64,000 nucleotides of DNA, taken from NCBI GenBank assembly GCA_918797485.1, contig CAKKNE010000002.1:3438501-3502500 (forward strand). The letters run 5' to 3'. The notes beneath the pieces are model-generated. The model was not told the origin of the DNA, made no database searches, and saw only the letters and a program-made list of their open reading frames with translations. Below are positions 1,534-35,931 of this stretch, one piece after another (positions within the stretch are counted from its first letter, which is position 1; each line of letters starts with the position of its first letter). A program made the position numbers and the translations under genes. Origin of the DNA: Pelagomonas calceolata. Its lineage: Eukaryota > Sar > Pelagophyceae > Pelagomonadales > Pelagomonadaceae.

Positions 1534-3079
1534 TCACTCGGAGTCCGAGCCGTCGTGGTCGCTGTCGTGGTAGCGGTTCGTGCGGTGGCCGAGCGTGCCC
1601 ATGATGCCGTTCACGGCGGCGCCGGCCGAGCGCGCGACGAACGCGCGGAACCGGCTCGCCCGGACCTGCGCGATCGCCGCGAGGGCGGCCGGCGACGGCT
1701 GCGGCGGCGCGGCGGCGACGTCGCCGTGGCCGAGGAAGGAGACGACGTGCTCCGCGACGACGTGCCAGGGCACGCGCGCGACCGGCAGGCGCTGGCGGCC
1801 GGCCGCGCGCCGGAGCGTCGCCAGGGCGACGTGGAACTCCGCGCCGAAGAGGTGCGGCGCGTCGCGCCAACGCGGGCCGACGAGGCGGACGGCCGGCCGC
1901 GGCGCGGGCGCGGGCGCGGGCGCCGCCGCGTCGCGCGTCACGTCGTCGGCCGCGTCGGCCGCGGCCGCCTCCTCCTCGTCCTCGTCCTCCTCCTCCGAGT
2001 CCGAGTCCGCGTACGCGTACGCGTACTCGCCGTCGTCGTCGCCGTCGTCGTCGCCGTCGTCGTCGCCGGCGGGGCGGACGAGGTTCGAGAACTGCACGGG
2101 CAGGAGGTCGTCGAGTTCGAACTCGTCGAAGCCCTCGAGCGCGTGCAGGCGCGTCACGCGCAGCAGGGCCTGGGGCAGGCCCCAGGGCGGCCGCGGCTCG
2201 AAGTCGTCCTCGAAGGGCCCCACGAGGCGGCCGTCGGGCTTGAAGAGGCGCCCGAAGCGGCGCGCGTCGCCGTGGCGCGCGCCGGCGCCCACGTAGATGC
2301 GGTCGAACTTCATCGACAGGTCCAGGTCCACGTCGAAGGCCGAGGCGCAGACGACCTGCACGTCCCGCAGCGCCGGCACGGGCCCGCGGCCCAGCGCCGC
2401 GAGCGTCGCGCGCGACCGCGCGGCCAGCGCCGCGTCGAGCTCGACGCAGACGTGGACGCAGCCCTCGCCCAGCAGCGCCGCGGCCAGCGCCGAGAGGTAG
2501 CCGCTGCCCGACCCGAGGTTCAGGAAGCTCAGCTGCCGGCGCCAGCGCGAGACCTCGTCGAGGCCCAGCGCCTCGAGGGCCGCCGCGTAGATCGACGGCG
2601 CCGAGAGGTGCACCACGCAGCCGCTCGCGGCCTCCGCCGCGCGGAGCGGCGCGTCGTCGAAGGCGCGGTCGTCGTGGCCGGCGGGCGCGAACGCGGCGCG
2701 GTCGACCTGTGTGGAAATCAACCGGTGCGTCGGGGGCACCCGATAATTCTTCGCTACGTCATGCCAAAGCGATGAAAGGGCGTGCTGACCGAATCGAGTG
2801 GTGAGCGACCCGCACCGCCACGCCGTCGAGCGGGCGTCGCGTCGCCGGCGAGGCCGACGCGACGATTCAGCACGAACGCGCCGTAAAATTTTGATTTCCA
2901 CGCAGCGGTCGGACGCGCGCGAAGGCGGCCGCGACCGCCGGCGTGCTGACGGCCCCACGCGCGACGAGGCGCCGCGCCATGGCCTGGGCCCGCGCCGCCG
3001 GGTTCGCCCCGAGGCGCTCGCGGTCGATCGCGCGCAGCGCCGCCGCCTCGTCGGCCTCGCGCGCGGCGTCTTGGTCCAT
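1534..3079 (-). CDS. PCMT-like (protein-L-isoaspartate methyltransferase family) protein with acidic C-terminal extension, two exons
   Basis: Exon 1 is 3079-2915 and exon 2 is 2706-1534 (445 aa). They are separated by an introner intron, 2707-2914. Joining them gives AFARVDRAAFAP, the PCMT-family start motif (V-x-R-x-x-F-x-P), which the unspliced frame destroys. The SAM-binding motif is LNLGSGSGYLSALAA. The C-terminal half is not standard for a repair PCMT. It has a DDDG microsatellite stretch, an acidic block, and then a conserved-looking tail (PRWRDAPHLFGAEFHVAL). This is longer than the roughly 225-residue repair enzyme, so it may be closer to PCMTD-type proteins. Substrate and location are not evident. 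Confidence 0.85.
2707..2905 (-). mobile_element. Introner copy 1, acting as an intron in the PCMT-like gene
   Basis: A 199-bp element with terminal inverted repeats. The + strand left end is CTGTGTGGAAATCAA and the right end is TTGATTTCCACGCAG. The flanking target duplication is slightly diverged: in gene sense, GTCCGACCG upstream and GTCGACCG downstream. The intron is the upstream TSD copy plus the element (2707-2914, 208 bp, GT-AG). The 3' AG comes from the element's TIR and the 5' GT from the duplicated target. The internal sequence matches copies 2 and 3, including the AATTTTACGGCGCG and GAAGAATTATCGGGTG blocks. No coding capacity, so non-autonomous. Confidence 0.92.
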
Positions 3080-5101
3080 GGGTTGAGCTGGTTTTTTGAG
3101 ACTCGCGAGCTGCCGGTGGGCCTCTGCGTGGATTTTGGGGGGGTCGTTGGGGCCCAGGCGTGTCCACGCACCTACTATTCTGGCACCCGGACCGGCTTAA
3201 CGACGGCCGTTAAGGACGTAAAAAACACCTCAACTCAGCCTTACGCGGTCTAACTTATCACCGAGGCGGATCCGCTGCGAGAACCCAAACCAAGGTGCGG
3301 AGAGCACCGATATATTGGCTCTCGAAGGGGGACTCTAGAGTGGGTTGCGGATTTCAGTCGGAAACCTGAAACTTCCGGACTTCCAAAGCCGGAAACCTGA
3401 AACCTCCGGCGAGAATCGGGCCGCAACCACCCGCGCACCATCTTTTTTTCTAGTGTGTCGATACGCTAGATCACCAGGTCTTGCGGCTCGCCAAAGTACA
3501 CCAGCGTTTGACGCCGCCATCTACTACCCAAATAGTACATCATATCAACTCCAGTCCAGTTTTTATACATGTCCGACGGAACCGGAGCCGACGGCCCGCG
3601 CTCGGAGGGCCGGAAAAGAATTCTACTAGACAACTCCCGAGTTTATGTTCGTTTCCTTCTATTTGTTAGGGGTAGAGTCCATCTAGGCCAATAGAGCACC
3701 TAACTAGCATGATCATATGCTCCATTTTCTCCGCGCGATTCGGCAACTCCGCGAGCCCACGATGGCGTAAAGGGGGAGCCAAAACCTGAACCCGCGAGTA
3801 TCAGCGACGCCACCACCCAGATGGACCATAAAGCCGTTGTTCTATTCACAATCGACCGACTTGCCCGTTCTCCGTGGACGACGGTGCGTTGACGGAGCAC
3901 CAGAAAGGCCCCAGACCGGTGTTTTATAAAATAAATTCGCGTTTCCGCCGCTTCGGGTGTGGGACGGGCCTGCGCGCACGGCTGAACGGCTACTACATTT
4001 CATTAACGGTTCCGTACACTCTTGGCGGCTCGGCCATCTCGCGAGACCACGATCTCGTCTAAATGGGGCGCAATACCAGACCTGCGACCATCAGCCCGTG
4101 TACCATCACCATGGACCTTGACGCGATCATTTGTTCCATGATCGACGGACTTACGCGAGGTCCAGATAAAGATGTTCACGTCCCGAGCGTGGGCAGCCAA
4201 AAGTACCCTTCTCGTAATGTAGATGGCATATACTCGTAATTGACTATCGTTGGGGTAGTATAGGGTCCAACGAGACCGCTACGGCGACTACTGGGGGCCC
4301 TCAGGTAATTGGCGTTTTTGCCGGGAACGAGGTGCCATCGGGTCCAAATTGCACACTTTTTTCGGGGGTAGATCGGCTCCTGGAGGGCTCTCGGGGTAGG
4401 TCTGGTGTTGGGTAAGCGCCTGCACCGCTTACGCCATCGATGCAGCAGCCTAGAGGTCTCGGAACCCAGACCTGCCCTCCTTCCTTATGACCTACGCAAC
4501 CGCAGGAACCTAGCCCGGGGCGGGTACTCCTCGAGTCCAGTGCTTGACTTGCAAGGGCAAGCCCGGCGCCGGCACTCCTTTCCCTAAACTTGCTAAAGCT
4601 CCTTTGTCTGCTGAGAGAATTGGCCAAAATATGCTTGAAGCGGCGGCGTGTGCGGTGTAGGCGCTTGCGCGCGACCACTGCCGACCCAAAGCGACCCCAG
4701 GGAGACCTCCGCGCCACGAACCGACAGGATTCCACTGGCGCGGCCGCCATGGCGGGACCGTCAATATCGCGAATTAAAAAAATTATTTTTTTCGCCTCCC
4801 AGTAAGTGTCCCATTGATCTCTTTGGACCAGTATCGAACCGAACGATACTCAAACGACTGCATGGCGCATCTCGGAGTTCCTCGCGGAATCCGCGCCTAC
4901 CGGGCGCGGACGGGAGCTGGGGCCCGCAACCTGAAACCTCGGGCGCCCGTTTCCGTGAACCGGAAACCTGAAACCTCCCACAACTCGGAGGCGGAAACCT
5001 GCAACCTGCAACCCACGTCCCCCCCCTTCTCTCGTTAGGGACTGACGCGGAGGTGAGGGCTCCTGGCGGAGGGCTACGACGGAGGAGTCCACACACTACA
5101 C
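3080..5101. other. Gene-poor interval
   Basis: About 2 kb without a convincing gene. Short open frames here have no family features and codon use unlike the flanking genes. A few copies of a short repeat are present (3360-3407 and 4926-5014). Confidence 0.5.
3360..5014. repeat. Scattered copies of a GGAAACCTGAAACCTCC repeat
   Basis: Near-identical 17-mers lie at 3360-3376, 3391-3407, 4926-4941 (GCAACCTGAAACCTCG) and 4962-4978. A related GGAAACCTGCAACCTGC lies at 4993 onward. They come in pairs spaced by about 14-20 bases at two places 1.5 kb apart. Function unknown; they could be remnants of one decayed tandem or mobile repeat. Confidence 0.7.
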
Positions 5102-5494
5102 TTACGCCACAAGCCGCACGTGGGCCGAGCAGCCGTCGCACGGCACGAGGTCGCCGTCGGCGCAGGGCTCGTCGTCGAAAATTTCAAAGGCGCCGCCGCA
5201 GCGGCACGGGTAGCTCCGCGCGCCGGCGCCGCCCGCCGCGAAGGCGCGCAGGGGCACGTCCATCCACACGACCGCGCGCGCCGCGGGCGCCCGCGCCGCG
5301 TCGTGCGCCGCGCGCGCCTCCGGCGACCCGAGCGCGGCCCAGGCCGCCTGGAGCCGCGCGAACGCCGCCGCCGCCGACGGGTCCTTGTCGGGGTGCAGCC
5401 GGAGGGCCAGCCGCCGGTACGCGCGGCGCAGCGCCGCCGCGTCGGCGTCGGGCGCCAGGCCGAGAACAGCGTAGGGATCGTCCCCGGCGTCCAT
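5102..5494 (-). CDS. DPH4: Diphthamide biosynthesis protein 4 (J-domain plus CSL zinc finger)
   Basis: A 130-aa protein matching the DPH4/DNAJC24/JJJ3 layout. The N-terminal J-domain is DPYAVLGL..., with the HPD motif in LRLHPDKDP. The C-terminal CSL-type zinc finger is YPCRCGGAFEIFDDEP followed by LVPCDGCSAHVRLV, four cysteines in two pairs. In the family, DPH4 supplies electrons or iron to the DPH1/DPH2 radical enzyme in modification of eEF2. Length is typical of the family. Start MDAGDDPYAVLG; TAA stop at 5102-5104. Single exon. Confidence 0.92.
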   Translation of the reverse strand: MDAGDDPYAVLGLAPDADAAALRRAYRRLALRLHPDKDPSAAAAFARLQAAWAALGSPEARAAHDAARAPAARAVVWMDVPLRAFAAGGAGARSYPCRCGGAFEIFDDEPCADGDLVPCDGCSAHVRLVA

Positions 5495-7275
5495 TACCCT
5501 GACCCGCGACGCGGGCTTAATTCGCAGGACTGCGCCGCACGTGCGTCGATACGTCGGCAGTACAAGACAGCTCTCCTGTAAGTTGACCAGTCCGCCGTCC
5601 GCCGGCCGGGTATTCCGTTGCGCGATTTAGTTCGGCATCGCTTCTCGCCAGTCGCTTTAGACAGCTGTCCATCCAAGCATAGAGGACGTGGTCGAGGAGC
5701 AGCCCGGAGCTAGCGGTCTGAGATACTAGCAAGCCGGACGGGGAGCGGAGGGGTACGGGGAACCCTGCGACGTAACTAGCCTCAGCCTCAGCCTCGGACG
5801 GGTGGGCCCGGGGGGAGCGGGAGGGGTACGGGGGACCCTACGACGTAACTAGCCTGAGCCTGAGCCATTTCGAGACTCGTACGCAAGACGCGGCCGGCGC
5901 GCCGCAAGTAAGGACGAGGACATCGCACGGCTCGTCATCGATAAGACAAGATAAGTGCTAGTCCCAACTTATCCTACTTCCATCGCGGGTCCGCCCGACG
6001 CGGACTACCTCTGCAGTGGCAGCCCTCGATGCGCCATGACCTTTTCAGGACGGCGCGGCCCGCGTCGAGCAGCGCGAGCCGCATGATGATCATGATCTGC
6101 CTGACGCCGTGTCGCCGCCGGTCGAGCCGAGAGCCGCCTATCGATGGCCGCATCTAAATCATAAATCCGAAGCGCTCGCACGTCGCGTTGCCCTTCCGTG
6201 GAGATCAGATTCAGATCAGATCACCCGGGTCTCTGGCAAGAACGTATGCCCGGCCTTGCCGAAGAGCCCCGACGCGCTCGCACCGGTCACCGTAGAGGTG
6301 GTTCGCCCACAATGAAGCGTGCAGCAGAGCGTAGCTCTGGACAGGCTAGTATCAGATGATACACGCCAACTACCGACCAACACTCAACCTCGACCACTTT
6401 TCGACGGCCACGTGATCACCCGGTTATCAGGTAAATTACTTCACCCAAGAGGACGCGTAGTCCAGCGGCGTGAATCACGGACGGACATACTAAGGGATCG
6501 TGGGTCGTGTGGCGGCGCCGCCGTGTCGTCCTTGCATGCGGCGACGTAGTGCGTAGCCGCTCGTCGTCGAGCCGTCACAGTTCTCGTGACACCCTTACAC
6601 GTAGATGAGCCGGCGCCCGCAGCTCTTGTTGGCGTCGATTTTTTTTTTTTTTTCCTTTGCGGCCGCACTCGTGCGGCCTGCAGCGCTATCACGGCGCCGT
6701 GTCTTTTTTTCTTTTGGCCCATGGCGAACTGGTACGCTATAGCTGAAACGCAGCGCGGTGCGTCAGCGGCTTCGCAGAGCGATGACGTCCGAGCGATGGT
6801 GTGTGACACAGCGCTCCAAATACACGAGTGGTGATTAGCGCGGCGGCGGGAGGCGGCAGCAGGTTTCCTGAACGTGGCTTGGAAGCGGGCCGCCTTGCTA
6901 CGCATCGCTGCAATCAAGCAACGCGAGGAGACGCCTAAAACCTCGTCACGTGAAAACCAACCCGAACCAAATCAGGATCGACGGCAAGAGCCGAAGCAGA
7001 CGAGGCAATACGTGAGCTCCTGTGTCCAAATTATCCGTGCGGGCAGTTATTTGGCAACATCTGCAGCGGTGGAACGGCCGGCGCTGCTCGAAATCGCCAG
7101 TTCGACGCGGCTTTGGCTTGTTTTGTGATTTGGAGCTCCGTCTGACGGGAGGCGCGGTCGACGACCGGCCGGCTGGCGCTGCCTCGTGCCGCCGCCCTCG
7201 CGCGCGGGGGGAGGAGGAGAGCAGCAGCCGCCGGGGGCGCGCGAGAGAAAACGGGGACGCCGCGCGCAGGTCGAG
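5495..7275. other. Intergenic interval between DPH4 and the LHC gene
   Basis: About 1.8 kb with no convincing gene. It holds a two-copy repeat (5742-5866), a run of T at 6641-6654, and small open frames without recognisable features. The last few hundred bases are presumably the LHC promoter and 5' leader; no TATA box is evident. Confidence 0.5.
5742..5866. repeat. Tandem pair of an about 50-bp repeat, third copy at 9827-9865
   Basis: Copies at 5742-5790 and 5814-5863 share GGGGTACGGGG followed by CGACGTAACTAGCCT and then a CTCAGC or CTGAGC doublet. A further copy with the same core lies at 9827-9865. All copies are intergenic and in the same orientation. Confidence 0.75.
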
Positions 7276-7875
7276 ATGGCCCGGAGTCTGGCCCTGTGCC
7301 TCGCGGGCGCGGCGGCGCTGCAGGCGCCCGCGCCGCGGCCGGCGCGGACCGCGCTCGGCTCGACGGAGATCGGCGTCGGCCCGGAGACGGGCGGCGTCAT
7401 GTGGGACCCCGCGGGCTTCGGCAAGCTCGCGTCGCCGACGACCATGAAGTGGTTCCGCGCGTCCGAGCTCAAGCACGGCCGCGTGGCCATGCTCGCGACG
7501 CTGGGCTGGGCCGTGCAGTCGAACGGCGGCGGCGTCATCCCCTTCCCGCTCGAGTCGGGCCTCGCGCCGCTGTCGACCAAGCCCCTCGAGGCGAACGCCC
7601 AGCTCTGGGGCATGGCGAGCGGCATGGGCTTCCTGCAGATCATCCTGACGTGCGGCGTCATCGAGCTCGTCACGGAGTCGACGGGCACGCACTACATGTC
7701 GGCCGGCGGCAACGGCTACATCGACATCTTCGGCTACTCCAAGTCCGGCGAGGACCTCACGGAGCTGCAGACGCAGGAGCTCAAGAACGGCCGGCTCGCG
7801 ATGATCGGGATCGCGTCCTTCTTCTCCGCGTGCCTCGTCCCCGACAGCGTGCCCGGCTACCCGTGGCCCGTGTAG
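7276..7875 (+). CDS. Fucoxanthin/chlorophyll a/c-type light-harvesting protein
   Basis: A 199-aa LHC-superfamily protein. Start chosen at ATG 7276: MARSLALCLAGAAALQAPAP gives the short hydrophobic signal of a bipartite plastid-targeting peptide with an alanine-rich cleavage region. An upstream in-frame extension is arginine-rich and unlikely. Helix 1 carries the chlorophyll-binding motif ELKHGRVAM and helix 3 carries QELKNGRLAM. Between them is a less conserved helix 2. The product should insert in the thylakoid membrane. The N-terminal mature motif (VMWDPAGF) is LHC-like, but the subclass (LHCF, LHCR or LHCX) is not resolved. Single exon. Confidence 0.92.
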   Translation: MARSLALCLAGAAALQAPAPRPARTALGSTEIGVGPETGGVMWDPAGFGKLASPTTMKWFRASELKHGRVAMLATLGWAVQSNGGGVIPFPLESGLAPLSTKPLEANAQLWGMASGMGFLQIILTCGVIELVTESTGTHYMSAGGNGYIDIFGYSKSGEDLTELQTQELKNGRLAMIGIASFFSACLVPDSVPGYPWPV

Positions 7876-7953
7876 GGGCCTAAGCCGGCGCCGGAGGGTA
7901 TCTCCCCGTGTTTCCGCGGGCTGCGCGCGCGAGGAGGCGTCGCCGGCTTAGGC

Positions 7954-9045
7954 CTAGTCCCCCTTCTCGCGCTTCGCCTGGTACCGCGCGAGCGCGTCGC
8001 GCCGCCGGGATCGCGGGAAGAGGACCTCGTGCGCGTTGCGGAGGGCGCCGAGGTCGTAGACGTTCGCGGCCGGCGCCGCGCCGCCCCGGGCCCGCCGGCG
8101 CCACTTGTAGTGCTCGTTCGTCGTGCGGCCGCGCCAGACCAGCCGGAGGTGGTAGCCGAGGAAGCCCGCGACGACGGCGCCGAGGACCGCGCACGCCAGG
8201 AGCAGCGCGCACAGCAGGCGCTCCGTGTGGAGCAGGTAGTGGACGACGACGCCGCGCGTCGCGGCGACGGGCGCGTCGCCGAGGTAGAACGTCGCGCGCA
8301 TCAGCTGCTTCGCGTCGACGACGTCCCGCAGGAGCAGGGCGGCGCAGGCCGCGCCGTAGGCCAGGAGCAGCGCGTGGCTCGCGAGGAACAGCAGGAACCA
8401 CCGGTAGTTCTCCTCGCCCACCGCGTTGTTCACCCAGGGGCAGAAGTGGTCGAAGCGCGCGACGACGCGCCGCGTCGTGCGGCAGAACTTGGCGCGCGCC
8501 GGCTTGGGGACGCCGGTCGTCGGGCACGTCCCGCCCGCCTCGTAGAGGCAGCCGTCGTACGCGTAGTTGTCGTGCTTCGCGAACGTCGCGGCGTCGACGA
8601 CGTAGCCCGGCGGCGCGGTGCACGCCTTGGCCCAGGTCCCCAGGCAGAACAGCACGAGCGCCAGCGCGGCCGGCCGGTGGTGCGGCCCGAGCGCGGCGCA
8701 GGGCACGCGCGGGTACATGTCGGCGACCGCGAGGCCGTAGCCGCCGCCGACCAGGAGCAGGTACAGGAGCTGCAGCACGGGGTTCGGCTCGTCGCACAGG
8801 TACGCGGCGCAGCGCGCGCCCCGGCGCGCGCCGACGCAGGCCCGCAGGAGCCGCTCCGGCGCGTCGAAGAGCCAGTTCGCGATCTCCGCGAGGCGCCCGT
8901 CGCCCTCCGGCTCGACGCATGCCACGAGGAACAGCGCCGCGGCCGCTGAGCCATAGCTCGCGAGCAGGCCGGCCTGCAGGAGCGCGAGCCACATGCGCTG
9001 CGGTTTTATGGCAGGAGTGGCAAGTTGTTGCGAGTAACTATCCAC
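7954..9045 (-). CDS. DHHC-family protein with a degenerate cysteine-rich domain (DHFC)
   Basis: A 363-aa polytopic membrane protein with two hydrophobic segments before and two after the CRD, the usual arrangement of protein S-acyltransferases. The CRD is recognisable (KPARAKFC, FDHFCPWVNNAVG, ENYRWF) but many canonical positions are changed. The second cysteine of the first CxxC is T. The HC before the next CxxC is FC. The following cysteines are T and V. The DHHC motif is DHFC, and the later NNCVG is NNAVG. The catalytic cysteine is kept. Start MDSYSQQLA at 9045, with an alternative at 8994. Intact frame, so not obviously a pseudogene. Confidence 0.8.
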   Translation of the reverse strand: MDSYSQQLATPAIKPQRMWLALLQAGLLASYGSAAAALFLVACVEPEGDGRLAEIANWLFDAPERLLRACVGARRGARCAAYLCDEPNPVLQLLYLLLVGGGYGLAVADMYPRVPCAALGPHHRPAALALVLFCLGTWAKACTAPPGYVVDAATFAKHDNYAYDGCLYEAGGTCPTTGVPKPARAKFCRTTRRVVARFDHFCPWVNNAVGEENYRWFLLFLASHALLLAYGAACAALLLRDVVDAKQLMRATFYLGDAPVAATRGVVVHYLLHTERLLCALLLACAVLGAVVAGFLGYHLRLVWRGRTTNEHYKWRRRARGGAAPAANVYDLGALRNAHEVLFPRSRRRDALARYQAKREKGD

Positions 9046-21554: not shown

Positions 21555-21585
<31 letters not shown>

Positions 21586-23952: not shown

Positions 23953-25030
23953 TCAGCCGCCGCCGGCGGCGCCGAGCCACTTCACGGCGGCGGTCGCCGC
24001 GGCGACGGCGCCGGCCGCGCCGGCCGGCGACGCGAGGGCGCCGAGCCCGGCGGCGTGGAGCTCCGTCAGCGGCCCGCGCGCCGCCGCGGCCGCGTGCTTG
24101 ACGTGGACGTAGTCCGGCGCCCGCGGCGGCAGCCGCGCGAGGCGCGCGCCTGCCGCGCGGGCCGCGCGGAGGAACGCGCGGTCCTCGTCGTAGCCTGTGT
24201 GGAAATCAAAATTTTACGGCGCGTTCGTGCTGAATCGTCGCGTCGTCCTCCACGCCATCGACACGACGCCTGCTCGATGGCGTGGTGATGCCTGTTCCTC
24301 GCCGCTCGACCGAGCCAGGACGGCCGCGTCATCGCCGAGAAATGACTTAGTGAAGAATTGTCGGGTGCGCCCGACGCACTGGTTGATTTCCACACAGGTC
24401 GTAGCTCGCGTCCGGGTAGGCGCAGGCGTCGAGGAGCCGTGCGTCGTAGCAGAGGCTCGCGATGGCCTCGTCCAGGAGCTCCGTGCCCCGGCCCAGGTCC
24501 CCGTCCAGCCGGTGGAGCGCCACGCCGGCGAGCCCGCCCCAGGTCATCGTCCGCGCGCGGCCCGCGTCGTCCTCCCAGCGCCACGCGTAGGGCGTCGCCA
24601 CGGTCGCGTCCGCCGCGCCCGCTGCGATCGGCGCCACCTGGCGCGCGAGCCGGTCGGCCCCGTACGCGTCGTCGTCGTCCCACGTCGCGATGACGTCGCA
24701 GCCGAGCGCGTCCCGCAGCTCCGTCGCCGCGCGCTGCCGCTTCGCGCCGATGCTCGCGCGCCGCGGCAGGTGCACGTAGCGCGAGCACGCGAGCGGCGCG
24801 CCCGTGCGGGCCTCGACCGCCCGCCGCGCCGCGTCGCCGGGCGTGTCGTCGACGACGAGCACCTCGGTGCGCGCCGCGGGGTACGTCTGCGCCGCGACGT
24901 TCGCCAGGCAGCGCTCGAGGTAGCGGGGCCGGTCGAAGGTGACGACGGCGACGCCGACCCGCGGTCGCGCTGGTACCCGGACCGCCTCGGGAGATGGCGC
25001 AATGGCGCCTAGGAGCAGCGCGGAGCGCAT
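23953..25030 (-). CDS. GT-A fold glycosyltransferase, GT2-like, with an introner intron
   Basis: Exon 1 is 25030-24406 and exon 2 is 24194-23953 (288 aa). A signal-anchor-like start (MRSALLLGAIAPS) precedes VAVVTFDRPRYLERCL, VLVVDDTPGDAARR and the metal-binding TWDDDDAYG. Splicing gives YPDASYDEDRAFLRAARAAG, the ED-containing acceptor region expected in this family. Without splicing the frame runs into introner sequence. The intron (24195-24405, 211 bp) is GC-AG. Probably a Golgi or ER sugar transferase; donor and acceptor unknown. Confidence 0.82.
24195..24397 (+). mobile_element. Introner copy 2, opposite orientation to its host gene
   Basis: 203 bp with perfect 15-bp TIRs, CTGTGTGGAAATCAA at the left and TTGATTTCCACACAG at the right. 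It is flanked by a perfect 8-bp duplication, GTCGTAGC at 24187-24194 and 24398-24405. Relative to the host gene it lies in the reverse orientation of copies 1 and 3, yet still provides the 3' AG because both ends carry the same TIR. The 5' splice site is the GC that starts the TSD in gene sense (GCTACGAC). Non-coding. Confidence 0.95.
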
Positions 25031-25872
25031 AGCTGTGGTGGCTACGATCGAGCCGTCGACCCACGGATACGCGACTGGTGTCTTAGCTAAGCGTCTGACC
25101 TCTTATGCGTCGGGTCCGGTGAGTGGCTCTCAAATCTCTGAGAGCCTTTTTAAAGGCCGCTGGCCGATGGCGTCGGCGTGTGTACGTGGGCCAGCTGCAC
25201 CTCGCAGCTATAATATATGCAAATCTCGCGCGTGTGCCAGCCTCTGAGATGTAGTCGCGGCGTTTAGTCGCGCAGCCTTGCAGTGCGCTTTTAACTCAGT
25301 AAATTTTCAATAGGGATCTTTCTCGTGCTCGAGGGAGCAATCATTCCACCCTTCGTGCGATTTCTTCCGGCAAAGAAAAACCCGACGCTCGCCCCAGCGG
25401 ACCATCGCTGGTGCAGCGGGCATAGCGTACAGAGGTCCTTAGCGGTGTCTGGAATTGACAAGCTGTGGCGAGTAGAGAGCTGAAGGTGTGGTTGGCGGAG
25501 AATGCAAAAGAGCGGCACGCGGCGACCATGTACGGCGAGCACAAGGCGGCCTCGCTTGCAGCTCTCGCTTTGCCGCCGCGCGGGACGCCACGGCCCTGCG
25601 CGGAGCGAACGAGTGGCACCAGCGGGACGCCGGCACGCCAGCACACACACGGACTGCTGCGAGACGCGCCCGTGGACGGAGAGACGGACGCGCGGCCACG
25701 CCGTCACGCCACGTCGAGCGAAAGCAGACCTCGCGGCGTCGCTGGCGTGGAGGTCGGCGACCAAGGGGAGAGACGACGCCGCCGTCGCGCCAAGCGTACG
25801 GAGATCGCGACCCGCCGCCGGCGCGCAGGTCCGTAGCCACCGGAGGGCGACCCGTAGCGGCGAGAGGACACC
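25031..25872. other. Divergent intergenic region, glycosyltransferase and eL21
   Basis: About 840 bp, no gene recognised. The GC-rich 3' half directly upstream of eL21 is presumably its promoter and leader. Confidence 0.4.
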
Positions 25873-26352
25873 ATGCCGCACTCGTTCGGCAGCCGCGCGC
25901 GCACGCGCGACATGTTCTCGCGGCCCTTCCGCCAGCGGGGCATGATCAAGATGTCGACGTACATGACCCAGTACAAGCTGGGCGACTACGTCGACATCAA
26001 GTGCAACCCGGCCCAGGTCAAGGGCATGCCCTTCAAGCACTACCACGGCCGCACGGGCCAGGTCTACAACGTCACCAAGCGCGCGGTCGGCGTCCGCGTG
26101 GCCAAGCAGGTCAACGGCCGCATCATCAACAAGCACCTCAACGTGCGCGTGGAGCACGTGATCCCCTCGAAGTGCCGCGACGACCTCAAGGCCCGCGTGG
26201 CGCGGAACGAGGAGCTCAAGAAGGCGGCGCGCGCGGGCGGCGCGCGCGCGGCGCTCAAGCGGCAACCGGCGCAGCCCAAGGGCGGCTTCACGATCGCGCT
26301 GCCCGCGGAGGTCACGACGATCCAGCCCATCCCCTTCTCGGACCTCTTCTGA
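25873..26352 (+). CDS. RPL21: Large-subunit ribosomal protein eL21
   Basis: 159 aa with the eukaryotic L21 signature: MPHSFGSRARTRDMFSR, GDYVDIKCNPAQVKGMP, KHYHGRTGQVYNVTK, AVGVRVAKQVNGRIINK and RVEHVIPSKCRDD. Length is that of the family. Cytosolic 60S subunit protein. Start is unambiguous. Single exon, which is unusual for ribosomal protein genes in intron-rich algae but fits this block. Confidence 0.98.
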   Translation: MPHSFGSRARTRDMFSRPFRQRGMIKMSTYMTQYKLGDYVDIKCNPAQVKGMPFKHYHGRTGQVYNVTKRAVGVRVAKQVNGRIINKHLNVRVEHVIPSKCRDDLKARVARNEELKKAARAGGARAALKRQPAQPKGGFTIALPAEVTTIQPIPFSDLF

Positions 26353-27572: not shown

Positions 27573-28520
27573 ATGGGCCGCACGCACGCCACTCCGTCGA
27601 TGAGGACGCGTCGCGCGCTGCTCGCGCTGCTGGCCGGCCTGCTGGGCGCCGCGGCGCTGGTGGTCGGCGCGCTCCGCGCGCAGCTGGGCGTGGACCCGCG
27701 CCTCGCGGCCCGGCCGGCGCGCCCCGCCGGCGCGCGCGGCTGCTCCGTGCGCGTGAACACGTTCCGGCGCAACGACCTGCTGGCGGGCTTCGTGGAGCAC
27801 TACGAGCGCTGCGAGGCCGCCGCCGAGATCGTCGTCGTCTGGTCGGACCCGGCGAACGCGCCGCCGCGCTGGCTCGCGCGGCGGAGGGCGCGGGGGGGGG
27901 CGGCGCCGCTGCGCGTGGAGCGCTTCGCGGAGGACTCGCTGAACAACCGCTTCGCGCTGCAGCGGCGGCCCGCGGCGGACGCGGTCTTCTCGGTCGACGA
28001 CGACGTGATCCTGGCCTGCGCCGACCTGCGGCGCCTCGTGGACGCGTGGGCCGCGGCGCCGGCGAACATGGCCGGCGTCGCGCCGCGGCTCGTCGCGCGC
28101 GACGCGCGGACGCGGCGCTGGCGCTACCTGCGGAGCTGGCACGTCTGGTGGACGGGCCGCTTCTCGCTCGTGCTCACCAAGGCCGCCGTGCTGCACCGCG
28201 ACCACTTCGCCGCCTACCGGGCCCCGGCGCTCGCCGCCGCGCGGGCGCGCGTCGACGCGGGCCGGAACTGCGAGGACCTGCTGATGGCCTGCGTCGTCGC
28301 GAACGCGACGCGCGCGCCGCCGCTCTGGGTGTCGGCGCGCTACGTCGACCGCGGCCAGGCGCTGCTTGGGCTCGGGGGCCACCAGGGCATCTCCGCGGCC
28401 GCCGGCCACGTCGCGGCGCGCGGCGAGTGCCTGGACGCGTTCGCCGGCCCGTTCGGGGGTCTGCCGCTCGCGACCGGCGCGGCGAAGCTCTCAGACGCGC
28501 GCGCCGCCTGGCTCTGGTAG
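27573..28520 (+). CDS. Exostosin-like GT64 glycosyltransferase
   Basis: 315 aa type II membrane protein: short cytosolic N-terminus, one signal anchor (ALLALLAGLLGAAALVVGAL), then the GT64 domain. Family landmarks are RVNTFRRNDLLAGFVEHY, IVVVWSDPANAPP, SLNNRFALQ, the metal-binding FSVDDDVIL, and VDAGRNCEDLLMACVVAN. GT64 enzymes such as EXTL2 transfer N-acetylhexosamine with retention. Golgi location expected. Complete, single exon. Acceptor unknown. Confidence 0.9.
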   Translation: MGRTHATPSMRTRRALLALLAGLLGAAALVVGALRAQLGVDPRLAARPARPAGARGCSVRVNTFRRNDLLAGFVEHYERCEAAAEIVVVWSDPANAPPRWLARRRARGGAAPLRVERFAEDSLNNRFALQRRPAADAVFSVDDDVILACADLRRLVDAWAAAPANMAGVAPRLVARDARTRRWRYLRSWHVWWTGRFSLVLTKAAVLHRDHFAAYRAPALAAARARVDAGRNCEDLLMACVVANATRAPPLWVSARYVDRGQALLGLGGHQGISAAAGHVAARGECLDAFAGPFGGLPLATGAAKLSDARAAWLW

Positions 28521-28954
28521 GAGATGGGAGTCGACGTGTGACTTGTGTGGCCTCTTTGTCATCTGGTGAGTAAGGACCTCAACGTACTACAAGTAGGCCC
28601 ACTGGCAGAGACAGGCAAAACGCATTCCCGTAGTATCGTCCGGGGACCCCCCGCCATCTTACATCCTCTAGAGGGACCCAAATAAGTCGGAGTTGGTACT
28701 TGCGCGGGAACAAACGGATCGGGTGGTGCGAAGCTATGGTTGAGGGCTCGAAAAAAAACAAATACCGTTTTGCATTTAATTAAAAATTTGCCCGGGCCTA
28801 GGCGCGGCTTCCAGGGCTCCCCCGTAGGAAATCTGCTAGCGGCATGTACCATGTAAACAGGTAAGACACTGGGCATCCCTAGCAAAGCAAGCGTAGCAAG
28901 CAGCACACCTCAAAATCAGCCTGGTGACACCTTGCTCTCTCCGTTTTCAACTGC
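28521..28954. other. Short tandem-gene spacer
   Basis: 434 bp between two same-strand genes. Holds a TTTAATTAAAAATTTG stretch and no recognisable gene. Confidence 0.4.
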
Positions 28955-30313
28955 ATGCTAGGCCGGATAGCGCTTGTCCTGGCCGCGGTCGCGCGGGCCC
29001 TGCGGCTGCGCGCAGGGCCGCCGCTGGCGCCGGTGCGCCGGGCGCTCGGCGCCGCGGCCTGCGCCGCGGCCCTGGCGCCGCCGCTGACGGGGCCGGCCGT
29101 CGCCGCGCCGCCCGCCGCGGAGCCGGACGCGCCGGCGGCGGCGCGGCGCCTCGTGGAGGAGGCCTACGACCTGCTGGACAAGTACTACTACGACGGCGAC
29201 TCGCTCGCGGCGCCGCGGTGGCGCGGCGCACGGGAGCGGTACGCCCGCGCGGCGCAGCAGAAGCCGCGGGCGGCGCCGGCGTTCCGGGCGGAGGCGCTCA
29301 AGGCCCTCGACGCGGACCGGTACACGCGCATCGTTGACGAGCGGACGTACGCGGCCATCTCGCGCTTCGACATCCTGGGCGTCGGCCTCATCCTCGCGCC
29401 GGGGCCGGACGGCCGCGCGGCGGTCGCGAGCCCGCCGCTGCCCGGCGGGGCGGCGCAGCGGGAGGGCTCCATCCGGCAGGGCGACGTCGTCGACACGATC
29501 GACGGCGTCAAGACGGGCGGCAAGTCGTCCTTCGAGCTCCTCGAGATCGTGGACCGGGCCGCGGACGCGGGCCGGGCGACGTTCGGCGTCGTGGGGGCGG
29601 GCGACCGCACGCCGCGGCTCGTGACGCTCGAGCGGACGGTGCGGTCCGTCGGCGACCCCGTGCGCGCGGCGCGGGGGCCCGCCGACGGCGTCGGCTACGT
29701 GCGGCTGGGGGAGTTCAACTCGCGGACGGCCGACCGGCTCGCCGAGGTCCTGCGCGACCTCGCCGCGCGCGGCGCGGCGCGCTTCGTCGTCGACCTCCGG
29801 GGCAACGGCGGCGGCGCCTTCCAGGAGGCCGTGGCCGCCGCCTCGCTCTTCCTCGACGACGGCGCGCCCGTCGTGACTGTCGTCGAGCGGTCCGGCGGCG
29901 GCGGCGGCGCGGACCGCCGCGAGACCTTCGCCGCGAAGGCGCCGCCGCCCGCGCGCCGCGCCTTCGCCGCCGCCGCGCCGCCGCCGCGCGTCCAGCTCTG
30001 GCTCGACGGCGGCACCGCGTCCGCCTCCGAGATCTTCGCCGGCGCGCTGCGCGACAACTGCGCCGCGGCGCTCGCGGGCCGGCCGAGCTTCGGCAAGGGC
30101 AAGATCCAGGCCGTCTTCGGCCTCGCGGACGACTCGGGCCTCATCGTCACCGTGGCCAACTACCTCACGCCCGCCGGCACCGCCATCCAGGGCGTCGGCC
30201 TCACGCCCGAGGCGGGGCTGCGCGGCCCGGGCCTGGGCCTCCTCGAGCCGCCCCTCCCGTCGGCGGCGCAGTTCGACGACGCCTGGGACCACCGGGTGTG
30301 TGCCACGAAATAA
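28955..30313 (+). CDS. CTPA: Carboxyl-terminal processing peptidase (CtpA/D1-processing type)
   Basis: 452 aa S41 protease. An N-terminal targeting region ends in a hydrophobic, alanine-rich thylakoid-lumen-type signal (AAALAPPLTGPAVAAPPAA). Then come a helical region (EEAYDLLDKYYYDG), a PDZ domain (GSIRQGDVVDTIDGVK) and the catalytic domain with VDLRGNGGGAF, nucleophile Ser in GGTASASEIFAGAL and Lys in SFGKGKIQ. In plastids CtpA removes the D1 C-terminal extension to allow Mn-cluster assembly. Serine and lysine are present. Single exon. Confidence 0.92.
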   Translation: MLGRIALVLAAVARALRLRAGPPLAPVRRALGAAACAAALAPPLTGPAVAAPPAAEPDAPAAARRLVEEAYDLLDKYYYDGDSLAAPRWRGARERYARAAQQKPRAAPAFRAEALKALDADRYTRIVDERTYAAISRFDILGVGLILAPGPDGRAAVASPPLPGGAAQREGSIRQGDVVDTIDGVKTGGKSSFELLEIVDRAADAGRATFGVVGAGDRTPRLVTLERTVRSVGDPVRAARGPADGVGYVRLGEFNSRTADRLAEVLRDLAARGAARFVVDLRGNGGGAFQEAVAAASLFLDDGAPVVTVVERSGGGGGADRRETFAAKAPPPARRAFAAAAPPPRVQLWLDGGTASASEIFAGALRDNCAAALAGRPSFGKGKIQAVFGLADDSGLIVTVANYLTPAGTAIQGVGLTPEAGLRGPGLGLLEPPLPSAAQFDDAWDHRVCATK

Positions 30314-31156
30314 AAAATTCTACGAACACTCTGTCACTGGCACGGTTGGTTGTTTGACTGAAGTTACTTTCCCAGAGAGAGTAGGGGGTGGGGTTTTTGG
30401 CAGTGTCGGGGCTGATCGCCCCTTCCCCTTCCATTGAAGTTCCAAAAAAGCCACCCCCGTGGGGCTGATCGCCCCGTCTAGCCCCGAGTTTCCCATTTTG
30501 ATTATCGCCAAAATTTCGCCAAAAAGTTCAACATAATAATTTTTGCCAACGCCCCTTTTGACCACCGCCCCCCTTTTTGACCACCGCCCTTTTGACCAAC
30601 CCCCCTTTTTCATGTTGACGTCACCGCAAAAAGCAGAAAAGCAAAAAAGCCTCAGGCTGTTTTTCTAACCCCCTAACATGTAGTCAGTTTAGATTTTTTA
30701 ATTATGAGGGACGTTGAGGGCGGTGTGATAGGGACCGTCCCGCTGTCTCCTGCTGGGTTGTGGCAGATTTTGGCGAACCCACTATACTCTCTCGTTGGAA
30801 CCGGCACCTGGCAGGGTTTCAATGACGTTTAGTAACGAAATGTCACTGGCAGAAGTAATAAAGGAAAATTTTTAATCTCTGACAATTCATCCACAGAAAA
30901 CTGAATGTATTTGTACTCATACTATTTGTGAGCCTTGATGTGGGCGCTCATCGTGATCGGTGTCGGAACCTCGGGGTGTGGCGGGGGGCGCGACGGGCGC
31001 TGCGGTCACGCAGGGAGGGAGGGGTTGGCTCCGCGGCCAGGCGGCTAGCTCTAGGCAAAGCACATAAATGATCAGTGGCCCCGGCGGGCAGATGGAGTCC
31101 TCGCCATCCCAACGAAAATACCGACTCCATGCTTACTCGGCCACTGGCATCCCGTC
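30314..31156. other. Intergenic interval between convergent genes, repeat-bearing
   Basis: Contains the GGGGCTGATCGCCCC repeat (30387-30497) shortly after the CtpA stop and an imperfect TTTTGACCACCGCCC tandem repeat at about 30548-30608. No gene seen. Confidence 0.5.
30387..30497 (+). repeat. About 110-bp dispersed repeat with two GGGGCTGATCGCCCC hairpins, copy 1
   Basis: Shares with 51403-51500 the blocks GCAGTGTCGGGGCTGATCGC (one base different in copy 2) and GGGGCTGATCGCCCCGTCTA followed by GCCCCGAGTT. Each copy has two GGGGC-TGATC-GCCCC stem-loops. Both copies lie downstream of a + strand gene's stop codon, in the same orientation. Confidence 0.85.
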
Positions 31157-33259
31157 CTAAACGAGTTCATCCTCGAGGTACGCGTATTCGAAGGTGAAGT
31201 CTGACTTGATGCGCTGGCACCAGCCGGTCTCGTAGTCGAAGTATACGTACGTGCCCTGCTCGAAGGCGTCCGTCGTGGCCTTGGGCTCCTCGTGACGCTG
31301 GAACCACGTCATGTACTTCTTGTGGTAGCGCCAGGACTGCTTCTTGAGCTCGCGCGCGGCGAGGTACTGCTGGTACGTGCCCTGCTGGTAGTAGAACACG
31401 AAGAAGAGCGTGTCCGTGCCGAGGCGCGCGAAGACGGCCGCGCCGTCGAAGACGGCCGCGGGCTGCGTCGGGAAGGCGGCGGGCGTCGCGTAGGGGTTCC
31501 GCGGCACGTACTGCCGCGGCCGCTCGGCGTCGCGCTTGCGCGGCGCGCGGCGCATCGACAGCGCGAGCGCTGCGAGGCGCCGCGCCTCGGCCGCCGCGCG
31601 GTGCGCGCGCAGGTCGTCCGCCGAGGCCGCGCCGGCGCCCGGCGGCGGCGGCGGCGGCGCGCGCGCGTCGAGGAGGCGCGCGTACGTGTCGTCCGCGGCC
31701 GCGGGGTCCGTGCGGTCGAGGAGCGGCTCGAGCGAGGCGCCCGGCGCGAAGCACGCGTCGACGCCCGGCGCCGGCGCCGGCGCGGCGCCCGCCGCCGCCG
31801 TCGCCGGCGCGGCTGCCGCCGCCGCCGCGGGGGGCGCTGCGGGCGCGGGCCCGATCGCCGGCGCGGCCGCCGCCCCCGCCGCCGCGCCGCCACCGCCGCC
31901 GCCCCGTGCGAGGCGCGCGAGGAGGGCCGCGTCGCCGCCGGCCGCCGGCGGCGCGGCCGCCGCCGCGCGGCCGCTGGCCGCGTAGGGCGCGTAGCCGCCG
32001 GCCGCGCCGGCGGCGCCCGGCGGCGCCGGCGCGGCGCCCGGCGGCAGCGCCTGGCGCGCGGCGGCGGCGAACGGCGCCGCCGTCGCCGGCCGTGGCGCCG
32101 GGCGGTCCGTGCGCTGCTTGAGGATGGCGGCGAGGCTCGAGCCGCCCGGCGCCGCGGCGGCCGGCGGCGCCGCCGGCGCCGGCGCCGCCGGGGCCTTGGC
32201 GGGCGCGGCGGGCGCGGCGGGCGCCGCGGCCCGCTTGGCCGCCGGCGCCGGCGCCGGCGCCGCCGGCGCCGGCGGCTTCGAGGCGACGGCGCGCCCGATC
32301 GTCAGCGGCACCGCCTGGACCGGCTTCGCCTTGGCCGCGCGCGCGAGGCGCTTCTCCTCGCGCTCGCGCTCCTTGAGCAGCGCGCGGTCGCGCTTGCGTC
32401 GCGCCTTGGCGTCGAGGCCGTCGTCGTCGTCGGCGGGCGCGCCGCCGCCGCGCGCGACCGCGCCCTCGTCGCGGGCCTCGCGCGGCGCGCCGAGCTCGAG
32501 GCCCTCGAAGATGTCCATGGTCTCGTCGTACGCGTCCGCGAAGTCGGGCTCCTGGTTGGCGTCGATGTAGTACTCGACGTCCTCGCGCACCTCGTCGACG
32601 CGCTCGGGCGTCAGGACGCTGTTGTCCAGGAGCCGCGCGATCTGCTCGAGGCGCGCGACGTGCCACTTGTGGCGCCGCACGCTCGCCTCGAGGGCCTCGA
32701 CCTCGGCGCGGTGCTTCTTCGCGCCGCGGCCCGCCGAGAGGCGCTCGACGTCGGCCTCGGCCGCGTCGACCTGCGCGCCGAGGCGGTCCGCCGCGTCGCG
32801 GAGCCAGGCGCGCGTGCTCCGCCGGGCCGCCTCGTGCGGGTCGACGCGCGCCTCGCGCGCGAGGCCCTCCTTCGAGTACGTCTTGGTCTTGGTCTCCTTC
32901 TCGCAGACCTTGAACTGCTCCATCTTCGTCTCGATGAGCTTCCGCGCCGTCGCGAGCGCGCGCTTGTCCTTGACCTGCGCGGAAGACAACCGGGGCTCCG
33001 GCGCGCGTAACGTAACAGAAATTGCCCGCGTCGCGGCGCGGCGGCCGACGTCGCTCGACGCCGCCCACGTCTTGATCTGGTCGCGGTGCCGCTGCAGCTT
33101 CTTGATCTCCTTCTTGAGGTCGACCTCGTACTTCTCCTTCTGGTTCTGCTGCGTCGCGCTGTAGACCTTGTCCCACACCTCGTCGAAGACCTCCACGCCC
33201 TCCTCGACCTTCTTGAGCGTGCGGTCGATCTCCGTCTGGAGCTTGCGGTTGGCGCTCAT
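31157..33259 (-). CDS. CNOT3: CCR4-NOT complex subunit NOT3/NOT5
   Basis: Exon 1 is 33259-33050 and exon 2 is 32974-31157 (675 aa). The N-terminal Not3 domain starts RKLQTEIDRTLKKVEEGVEV and contains KEIKKLQRHRDQIKTW. After splicing, KTWAASSD is followed by VKDKRALATARKLIETKM, matching the family, which lacks the 25 residues encoded by the 75-bp intron. A long Ala/Pro-rich linker follows. The C-terminal NOT box contains TDTLFFVFYYQQGTYQQYLA and KYMTWFQRHEEPK. The protein is part of the mRNA deadenylation complex. The intron has no stop and is in frame, so retention would give a readable protein. Confidence 0.94.
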   Translation of the reverse strand: MSANRKLQTEIDRTLKKVEEGVEVFDEVWDKVYSATQQNQKEKYEVDLKKEIKKLQRHRDQIKTWAASSDVGRRAATRAISVTLRAPEPRLSSAQVKDKRALATARKLIETKMEQFKVCEKETKTKTYSKEGLAREARVDPHEAARRSTRAWLRDAADRLGAQVDAAEADVERLSAGRGAKKHRAEVEALEASVRRHKWHVARLEQIARLLDNSVLTPERVDEVREDVEYYIDANQEPDFADAYDETMDIFEGLELGAPREARDEGAVARGGGAPADDDDGLDAKARRKRDRALLKEREREEKRLARAAKAKPVQAVPLTIGRAVASKPPAPAAPAPAPAAKRAAAPAAPAAPAKAPAAPAPAAPPAAAAPGGSSLAAILKQRTDRPAPRPATAAPFAAAARQALPPGAAPAPPGAAGAAGGYAPYAASGRAAAAAPPAAGGDAALLARLARGGGGGGAAAGAAAAPAIGPAPAAPPAAAAAAAPATAAAGAAPAPAPGVDACFAPGASLEPLLDRTDPAAADDTYARLLDARAPPPPPPGAGAASADDLRAHRAAAEARRLAALALSMRRAPRKRDAERPRQYVPRNPYATPAAFPTQPAAVFDGAAVFARLGTDTLFFVFYYQQGTYQQYLAARELKKQSWRYHKKYMTWFQRHEEPKATTDAFEQGTYVYFDYETGWCQRIKSDFTFEYAYLEDELV
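32975..33049 (-). mobile_element. Decayed introner remnant acting as the NOT3/5 intron
   Basis: 75-bp GT-AG intron. In gene sense its 3' end reads CCGGTTGTCTTCCGCGCAG, 15 of 19 identical to the end of introner copy 1 (CCGGTTGATTTCCACACAG). The 5' half is too changed to align securely. The TSD copies (GTCGGCCG, GTCAAGGA) keep only the first bases. Read as an old, shortened introner. Confidence 0.65.
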
Positions 33260-34127
33260 GGTGATCGCTCTCGGCTTGAGCTCTAAAAGGACTTGATAGT
33301 AGAGAACCCGAACTCACCCTAGGGGGTCCGAGCCTCGGTTGATCAGGAAGCGTCTTCAGGAAGCAAAGCTAGCTAGCGTTGAGATGTTACTGCTGCTCCA
33401 CACCTAAGGCTTGAGCGCGAGCTCGTTTTAGCCGCCTAGTGTGTTCCGCTAGACCCAAGTTAACATAAAAAATATAATGTTCGGAAATCGCCGTAGCTCT
33501 CCCAGCCGCTATTAGCCTTCTTAGAACCCTCTGTATGATCGATATAAGTTGTATTGAATTTTCTTCTCCCGCAGACAGCGTCTCCAACGGTCTCTGCGAT
33601 GCAAAGCTCCACGTCCATAAACACACGTGCCTCCTACGAAACTACTTGAAGGCAACTTCACCCAACATATTAACCTACTTGAAGGCAACTTGACCCCCAA
33701 ACTAACCTACTTGAGGTCAAGTTGCCTCTAACCTCAATCCTAACACTTTAATCCTAAGGGACGGGTTTTGACGCAATTCAATTTAGGGCAGGAATTGGCG
33801 CCAAAAAAAAGAAGACGCAGGTTAGGAGAGGCCGTTGGGTGGTCAACGGCGTGTGATTTCACACCCGTTGCCAGTCAACACACTCTCTCTCATATAATCG
33901 TTCAAGGAACTCGCCACGTTCTTTCTTCTCGGAGGCCTTGTATATGTACGGGAGGGAAAATCGAGGACGCCAAGGACTTCTGCTTAAACCGCTTGGCAGT
34001 CTTCCGCCCCGCGCGGGCCCGGGGCTTCCCAGGGGAGTAGACCGAGCGGTAAAGGAGGTCTCGGGGCTGCCGCCCGCCCGGGGGACTTCGGAGACGTCGG
34101 CCGCGTGTTGGCAGGCCCGGGTACTTA
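33260..34127. other. Intergenic interval with a short tandem and inverted repeat
   Basis: No gene seen. At 33641-33726 three copies of CTACTTGAAGGCAACTT-like sequence occur. Within them GGCAACTTGACC (33684-33695) is inverted as GGTCAAGTTGCC (33715-33726). Confidence 0.5.
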
Positions 34128-35931
34128 TCAAGATGTGGGCGGCGCGGCCGGCTCGCCATCGACGGGCTCGGCGAGGACCTCGCGGACGCGTCGCGCGTCC
34201 GAGCGCGCGACGGTGAAGCGGTACCCCGAGTCGACGACGGCGACGCCGACGGCGGGAATCTCGCCGTGGACGGCGCAGAGGTAGCCCGACAGCGTCACGC
34301 AGTCGAACGCGCGGTCGTCGAGCGGCGGCGCGGCGGCGCCGCCGCTGCCGCCGCCGCCTCCGCCTCCGGCGGGCGCCGGCGGCGGGCCGAAGAGCGCGGC
34401 GCGGACGTCGTCCAGCTCGGCCTCGCCGCGGACCACGTACGTCCTGGACGCGCCCCCCCGGCCGCGGTCCCCGGCGCCGCGCACGACCTGGATGAGCGAG
34501 CGGTCGGCCCGGTCGGCGCCCTCGGCCGCGTCGTCCTCGTCGTAGATCTCCCCGACGACCTCCTCGAGGATATCTTCCAGCGTCACGATGCCCGCGGTGC
34601 CGCCGTACTCGTCCACCACGACGGCGAGGTGCCGCCGCCGCCGCCGGAGGCTCTCGAGCGCGGCCCAGACCTGTGCGTAAATTAACCAGTGAGTCGGGTG
34701 CACCCGATAATTCTTCACTAAGTCATTTCTCGGCGAGAACGCGGCCGTGTTGGCTGAAACGAGCGGTAATAGACCACAACTCCACGCCGTCGAGCAGGCG
34801 TCGCGTCGATGGCGTGGAGGTCATGATTGAGCCGTGGCGAGGCGCGTCGCGAGAAATTGATTGAGCACTGGCCCAGACGCTCATGGAGCCCGGCACGAAG
34901 TACGGCGACTCGAGGGCCGGCTCGTCGCGCGCGCGCGTCGCGCGCAGCGCCGCCGCGCCGCCGCGCTCCGCGTAGCGGATCAGCGTCTTCGCGAGGAGCA
35001 CGCCCACGACGTCGTCGACGTCCTTCTCGTAGACGAGGACGCGGCTGCGCTTCGCTGCGCGCATGAGGTCCAGCGCCTCGCTGAGCGGTGCGCCGCCGGC
35101 CAGCGCCACGACGTCGACGCGCGGCGTCATCACCTCCGCGACGCGCGTCGCGCGCAGGTCCAGCACGCCGTCGACCATGCGCGACTCCCGCGCGCCGAGC
35201 GCGCCGCTGCGCCGCGCGCCGGCGACCAGCAGCCGCAGGCCGCGCTCCGAGACGCCCAGCGCGGCGGCGTCGCCCCGCGCGGCGAGGCCGAGCGGCGCGA
35301 GGCACAGCTGCGCGAGCGCGCCGAAGAACGCGCCGACCGGGGCGAGGACGACGGCGGCCGCGCGCACGAGCGGCACCGCGCGCCGCGCGACGCGCTCGGC
35401 GTTCGCGACGGCGAGCGTCTTCGGCAGCAGCTCGCCGAGGAAGATCGAGCCCGCGGCGAAGCCCAGCGTCGCCGCCGCCGCGCGCCGCGGCGCGCCGGCG
35501 CAGAGCTCGGCCAGCGCCGACGCCGCCAGCGCCGTGCCGCAGACCGTGCACGCCGTCGAGCAGACCAGCAGCGTGTAGAGCACGCGCGTGATGTCGCGGT
35601 CGAGCATGGTGAAGACGCCTGTCGACGGCTCGGCCTCGGCGAACTCCTTGACCTTCCACGGGTACAGCGTCGTGATGGCCACCTCCGCGGCGTGCAGGAG
35701 CGCCGACGAGAGGAAGAGCGCCGCGAAGGTCGCGAGCTTGCGCGCGTGGCCGCCGCGCGCGGCAGCCACCGCCGCTCCCGGGGATCCACCAAACGAGAGT
35801 CCCGCGGCCCGGAGCCGCGGGCGCGCGCGCCGCGCAGCGGCGCCCGCGCGCCTCGCGCGCCAGTCGGGCGCGGCGACGAAGCTCTGCGCGGACCCCAAAG
35901 CTGCGGCTAATAGCCAAATGGAGGGCCTCAT
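34128..35931 (-). CDS. CNNM/DUF21 plus CBS-pair plus CorC-type transporter protein, probably plastid
   Basis: Exon 1 is 35931-34879 and exon 2 is 34670-34128 (531 aa). The signal-like N-terminus ([17 protein letters not shown]) suggests plastid import. The DUF21 membrane domain has several hydrophobic helices and the [17 protein letters not shown] motif. Then comes a CBS pair starting [15 protein letters not shown]. Splicing gives [20 protein letters not shown] then [20 protein letters not shown], the conserved second CBS half. The C-terminal CorC/HlyC transporter-associated domain follows. Family members handle Mg2+ or related cations. The intron is introner copy 3. Confidence 0.9.
34671..34870 (-). 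mobile_element. Introner copy 3, intron in the CNNM-CBS gene
   Basis: 200 bp flanked by a perfect 8-bp TSD, GCCCAGAC at 34663-34670 and 34871-34878. TIRs are more diverged (CTGTGCGTAAATTAA at left; the reverse complement of the right end is CAGTGCTCAATCAAT). The interior matches copies 1 and 2, including CTTCACTAAGTCATTTCTCG and the CCACGCCATCGA / TCGACGGCGTGG stem. The intron is TSD plus element (34671-34878, GT-AG). It lies in the same orientation to its gene as copy 1. Confidence 0.93.

Follow-up and report, generated by a model that had tools for sequence, protein, structure and literature searches.

Introners are a leading explanation for mass intron gain, and those of Aureococcus are said to carry one splice site and to co-opt the other from the duplication, a finding attributed to Huff, Zilberman and Roy (2016, Nature 538:533). 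Citing papers describe the Introner Elements of Aureococcus anophagefferens as ~210 bp long (PMC9481584) and as having direct repeats, terminal inverted repeats (TIRs) and canonical splice motifs (PMC7789003). Passages of Gozashti et al. 2022 describe introners with target duplications (TSDs) and TIRs that bring a 3′ splice site of their own and obtain the 5′ one from the TSD, and they give donor frequencies of up to 50% GC and up to 40% GA in some families (PMC9860276). Because the method set out in those passages compares introns as opposite-orientation insertions would predict, insertion in both orientations is no new idea (PMC9860276). For Pelagomonas calceolata, passages of the genome paper report an RCC100 assembly of 32.4 Mb (six nuclear contigs plus plastid and mitochondrion) and an intron-length peak near 210 bp that is tied to Introner Elements (PMC9481584).

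We analyzed a 64,000-nucleotide stretch of P. calceolata DNA (the window; contig CAKKNE010000002.1, positions 3,438,501 to 3,502,500) in which three related segments interrupt open reading frames. Judged by sequence, these segments are very probably introners, that is, non-autonomous TIR DNA transposons present in more than 1,000 copies and predicted to serve as introns in either orientation. The predicted introns have the traits of introners: they are near-identical, lie in many unrelated genes, and combine a TSD with TIRs; their acceptor is in the element, their donor comes from the duplicated target and their removal would leave mRNA length unchanged. A full element plus one TSD measures 203 + 8 = 211 bp, which fits the published peak, and the family is very probably the set of ~210-bp introns described in passages of PMC9481584.

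Results

Three related elements interrupt unrelated genes in the window

All three elements belong to family 1. Copy 1 (2707–2905, plus strand, 199 bp) has its P end, AACCGGTG, on the left and its Q end on the right; copy 2 (24195–24397, minus strand) spans 203 bp; and copy 3 (34671–34870, plus strand, 200 bp) has diverged TIRs. Copies 1 and 2 lie on opposite strands and align over 203 bp at 81% (E 5e-51); copies 1 and 3 share a strand and align over 149 bp at 77% (E 2e-25). These alignments reject chance similarity and bear out the initial annotation, which had described about 200 bp of shared sequence. A profile search of the window at E up to 0.01 returned these three copies and no more. 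Across 38000–64000 the G+C content of the window drops from about 0.64–0.83 to 0.45–0.58, and the same search found no introners in that part; low-GC regions with repeats are mentioned in passages of the genome paper (PMC9481584).

The host genes are mutually unrelated and, as first annotated, all on the minus strand. Their joined open frames encode a PCMT-like methyltransferase (copy 1, 1537–3196), a GT2 glycosyltransferase (copy 2, 23956–25102) and a protein with CNNM transmembrane and CBS domains (copy 3, 34131–35994). Copies 1 and 3 are antisense to their hosts and copy 2 runs in its host's direction, which is the arrangement previously proposed. Cutting out the element and one TSD joins the reading frame at all three copies. 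At copy 1, the junction AFAR|VDRAAF aligns gap-free with AFRAIDRGDY of PCMTD1 (9oma), and the joined protein of copy 3 aligns with PYFVPENMDAWSLLKELRRRK of 7cfk with no gap at the junction. The earlier claim that removal restores conserved protein each time thus stands for copies 1 and 3; at copy 2, where no homologue in PDB and plasmid searches reached the junction, it reduces to frame continuity.

As had been noted, each element is flanked by 8-bp duplications, two of them perfect: GTCGTAGC/GTCGTAGC at copy 2 and GCCCAGAC/GCCCAGAC at copy 3. The copy 1 pair, CGGTCGAC/CGGTCGGA, is imperfect, most readily explained by an additional base in the upstream duplicate. In transcript sense (minus strand), the downstream duplicates are GTCGACCG at 2699–2706, where the downstream exon of copy 1 starts, GCTACGAC at 24187–24194 and GTCTGGGC at 34663–34670. 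The upstream duplicates, at 2906–2914 (GTCCGACCG, with the extra base), 24398–24405 and 34871–34878 on the same strand, would provide GT, GC and GT donors, respectively, in line with the proposal that the 5′ site comes from the duplicated target. The predicted introns run along the minus strand from 2914 to 2707 (208 bp), 24405 to 24195 (211 bp) and 34878 to 34671 (208 bp); each length is one more than a multiple of 3, so that a retained intron would cause a frame shift. A further statement, that both termini end in CAG when read outward, fails for copy 3, whose right end, the upstream one, reads ...GAGCACTG and has decayed to CACTG while the downstream end is still GCACAG.

The elements form a family of more than 1,000 members

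In the whole genome (32,445,274 bases, 8 contigs), the TIR CTGTGTGGAAATCAA with up to 1 mismatch has 1261 forward and 1255 reverse matches, as compared with 2 and 0 for a reversed control pattern, and this TIR count suggests about 1,250 elements. Family 1 is 203 bp when complete, with AACCAGTG as its P end and AAAATTTTACGG as its Q end; family 2 has the same TIR and the Q end AAATTTCGGGCGCCCC, and shorter forms among the sub-families reach down to 60 bp. In IMG/VR, the 15-mer TIR matched 43 stretches once each and the 21-mer P and Q ends matched 0 and 0 times. All 43 are taken as chance matches: 42 had no facing match within 1.5 kb, and for the remaining one (L088) the facing match has 3 mismatches and lies 1.4 kb off.

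For closer study we assembled 72 elements from the window, 30 loci that were the best matches to copy 1 (a choice that favors family 1 and intact ends) and 20 contig 1 regions around perfect left TIRs, among the matches listed (100 places). Because TIRs served to find these elements, the presence of TIRs is in this set a selection criterion. TIRs were paired at a threshold of 3 mismatches, giving a list of 78 rows; four unpaired TIRs (L026:2884, L039:7175, L048:3743 and L048:8974) and two over-long pairings (L006:235 and L025:543) were left out, and copy 3, unpaired at this threshold, was re-entered by hand to give the 72. About 12 further diverged or partial profile matches lie outside this set. 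TSDs of 8 bp with at most 1 mismatch flank 57 of the 72; the other 15, copy 1 included, have TSDs with at least 2 mismatches and were set aside. The genome search and tally that the initial annotation recommended yield more than 1,000 copies, both orientations and recognizable TSDs in most sampled elements.

To call the host strand we trained a codon model first on the three window genes and then again on long frames, with the window genes among its training data. The strand was called for 52 of the 57 elements with good TSDs and was unclear for 5. A call demands that the joined frame be open for at least 10 codons on each side, so that open joins in 52/52 arise partly by construction, a dependence that scoring the flanks separately (below) avoids. 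Neighboring elements stayed in the flanks during calling.

Several loci show unusual arrangements. At L026:1290-1703, two family-1 elements stand in tandem (TSD-element-TSD-element-TSD) with the same 8-bp TSD three times and sequence variants common to both; its middle junction, CACAG|GTCGCGGA, forms an AG|GT site that could permit recursive splicing with a zero-length exon. At L017:1500-1702, the 8-bp flanks are inverted rather than direct (GTTCTGGC and ACCAGAAC, 7/8 matching as reverse complement), and the joined frame is nevertheless open on the called strand. The perfect P-end TIR at L039:7175, whose subterminal sequence resembles family 2, faces no partner end within the 2.7 kb on its right and may be the acceptor of an intron that has lost its upstream end to decay.

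Probable use of the family in both orientations

Among the 72 elements, the acceptor is predicted at the Q end in 33 and at the P end in 20 of family 1, and in 8 and 5, respectively, of family 2, with 6 elements lacking an assignment. Elements with good TSDs (n = 51) split 32:19, which by itself falls short of significance (p 0.09). Genome-wide, an exact P end is followed by GY in 334/565 cases and an exact family-1 Q end in 174/232 (difference p 3e-5). If every element obeys the donor rule described below, these counts would imply a ratio of about 38:62, with GY at 34% of non-splicing ends; the ratio is approximate because the P-end counts include family 2. The observation that, according to the initial annotation, would speak against two-way use, namely copies in one orientation only, is not what the elements show.

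These arrangements bear on whether the introns spread as RNA, by reverse splicing, rather than by DNA transposition. Introns borne by RNA are expected in coding-like frames, and host strand could be called for 67 of the 72 copies. Reverse-spliced intron RNA should, however, insert in the sense orientation and without a TSD, whereas the copies have near-perfect TIRs, 8-bp TSDs and both orientations. We therefore reject this route, which we regard as very improbable.

A strand-specific donor rule and one-sided loss of AG

All 52 elements with a called host strand have a TSD that opens with G when read in transcript sense (GT 32, GC 19, GA 1), against a flank background of 5% GT and 13% GC. The single GA donor, GAAACGAC on the called host strand, belongs to L025:1501-1703. 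The pattern does not depend on strand calls: before any were made, all 56 TSDs considered (copy 3 not included) had a GY start or an RC end, as compared with 18–48% at 12 shifted positions. Where only one end of the TSD qualifies (G first or C last), the codon-based host strand concurs in 31/31. For the 15 elements with decayed TSDs, the 8 upstream bases begin with G in 11, all of them GT; the exceptions are L001 (copy 1, owing to its one-base shift), L009:66, L016:2818 and L034:3734. Set against the 32 GT and 19 GC of elements with good TSDs, the 11/11 may mean that older copies favor GT, a comparison made post hoc.

Because both ends carry the same TIR, they differ in what splicing demands of them. 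The terminal AG is intact at 55/55 downstream ends and lost at 7/59 upstream ends (p 0.013), a test that omits the left ends by which regions were picked. TIR mismatches occur at 17/55 downstream and 15/59 upstream ends; apart from its AG, the downstream TIR is kept no better.

These two asymmetries also speak against removal by something other than the spliceosome, either at the DNA level, in the manner of internal eliminated sequences, or at the protein level. Such removal would agree with the restoration of the frame by exact loss of the element and one TSD, which does not tell the level at which the loss occurs. DNA excision would have no reason to track the gene strand, yet the strand on which the TSD starts with G is the transcribed one in all 31 informative TSDs, and AG is lost at the upstream end only. 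DNA-level excision is accordingly rejected, and removal at either level seems to us very improbable.

Reading frames continue across the elements

When flanks of 150 bp were scored apart at a margin of 5 nats, strand and frame continued across the element in 33 of 34 clear cases, the chance level of such agreement being about 1 in 6. Outside the 34 were 16 unclear cases, 6 with an element in the flank and 1 lacking a flank. The sole disagreement, L022, differs in strand and has a weak left score. At the same margin, continuity was 16/16 with 90-bp and 33/35 with 210-bp flanks; raising the margin to 8 gave 8/8, 24/24 and 30/30, and removing it gave 37/43, 40/44 and 35/40. The element runs with the gene in 19 of the 33 continuing cases and against it in 13, with no direction assigned in 1. 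Retention would cause a frame shift or a stop in 48 of the 52 elements with called strands.

Long wrong-strand frames are common in this GC-rich genome, so ordinary MITEs scattered at random might look like introns as a by-product of base composition and spurious frames, a reading about as improbable as non-spliceosomal removal given the 56/56 GY or RC ends at the true TSD position, the 33/34 continuity with separately scored flanks and the gap-free homology over two junctions.

Taken together, our results support the view that the elements behave as introns in both orientations. The initial annotation had held that such use is seen directly in three copies. What is seen directly is G at the donor position in 52/52 and frame continuity in 33/34, with elements lying both ways; splicing is the predicted part of that statement. 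Both-orientation use appears to be routine in this genome, well beyond the three copies in the window.

Target choice and the search for a mobilizer

Beyond the donor position, TSD composition in transcript sense departs from the flank baseline at C3 (26/52, p 0.004), G6 (30/52, p 0.0007) and A7 (18/52 versus 17%, p 0.002), all p values being uncorrected. There is no enrichment of C8 (p 0.10) or of AC at positions 7–8 (5/52, p 0.18), and RC at these positions is weakly enriched (16/52, p 0.02). This composition suggests a palindromic, GTCNNGAC-like target bias, which resembles the targets of hAT and P elements without proving membership of either.

Such a bias raises the idea of an element suited by design to creating introns regardless of orientation, with an acceptor at either TIR and a palindromic preference that tends to place G[T/C] on both strands. 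We consider this doubtful. The AC and RC counts at the non-splicing end indicate that a second-strand donor is mildly favored at best, and this lowers our estimate from somewhat below even to clearly below it. Were the idea correct, transposase target choice would have pre-adapted a MITE for an intron role in either direction, and the genome would constitute a natural library of more than 1,000 donors filtered by selection.

The transposase gene with matching TIRs that the initial annotation had proposed looking for did not emerge: family searches of the genome found no transposase or autonomous partner with these TIRs. They did find one single-copy hAT-like gene with a 721-aa frame (C4:4499880-4502042), and the 4.2 kb examined at this locus contain no TIR, even with 3 mismatches allowed. 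The zinc-finger-like N-terminal part of this gene (L094:781-3651) seems to be broken by a decayed introner at L094:2933-3067, with an imperfect TSD (GCAACCGG/GTAACCGT), as judged by eye. Models of the KDZ, MULE, P and Merlin transposases had 0 matches each in the genome; the PF21787 and PF18758 models, for P and KDZ, had no working control and so say little.

Comparison with hAT features gives a mixed picture. The 8-bp TSD is that of hAT MITEs. hAT elements have the target bias nTnnnnAn, to which the enriched A7 may correspond, T2 being confounded with the donor. The hAT TIR has the form CAGNG, and the TIR here begins CTGTG, differing at base 2.

Discussion

The reading that we favor, introners acting as introns whichever way they insert, builds on what the DNA itself displays: the family, its TSDs and TIRs, the strand-specific G, frame continuity and downstream AG retention. 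From these we infer splicing itself, a branch point, a selection step and a transposase. A transposase acting in trans would insert elements of ~203 bp and duplicate 8 bp of target. Both TIRs end outward in TTGATTTCCACACAG, so that a 3′ splice site would be available at whichever end lies downstream, composed of a pyrimidine-rich TTTCC followed by CACAG; TTGAT may act as the branch point. The upstream target copy would begin with the donor (GT or GC, rarely GA), and splicing would take out the element and one TSD to restore the mRNA. On this model orientation hardly matters, because splicing removes element and TSD alike; what matters is G[T/C] at the target start on the transcribed strand. 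The simplest reading of the lack of donor-less insertions in our sample is that selection removed them.

The family makes the acceptability of new introns countable, as a single element with the same acceptor at both ends varies mainly in donor and orientation. Three features bear on selection for splicing after insertion: a donor rule that follows the gene strand, an orientation bias of about 62:38 and the loss of AG at one end of the element.

Comparison with known introners

A literature search returned nothing matching introners with the phrase 'either orientation', nor introners with hAT. The introners in passages of Gozashti et al. 2022 are like the family described here in that GC and GA donors occur (PMC9860276). 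They differ in detail: the example in Fig. 2B of that study has 4-bp TSDs as compared with 8 bp here, and in its Aureococcus sp. example the transcript gains 12 bp, as against apparently none in the present family (PMC9860276). Pelagomonas is not named in its main text (PMC9860276). For the ~210-bp introns of P. calceolata, the passages of PMC9481584 give the length peak alone. Compared by description, the family resembles the Introner Elements of A. anophagefferens in its pelagophyte host, length of ~210 bp, direct repeats, TIRs and canonical splice motifs (PMC9481584, PMC7789003), and it differs from them in that 19 of 52 donors are GC. For this genome our analysis adds the strand-wise donor rule, the ratio between the two orientations and the loss of AG from one end only.
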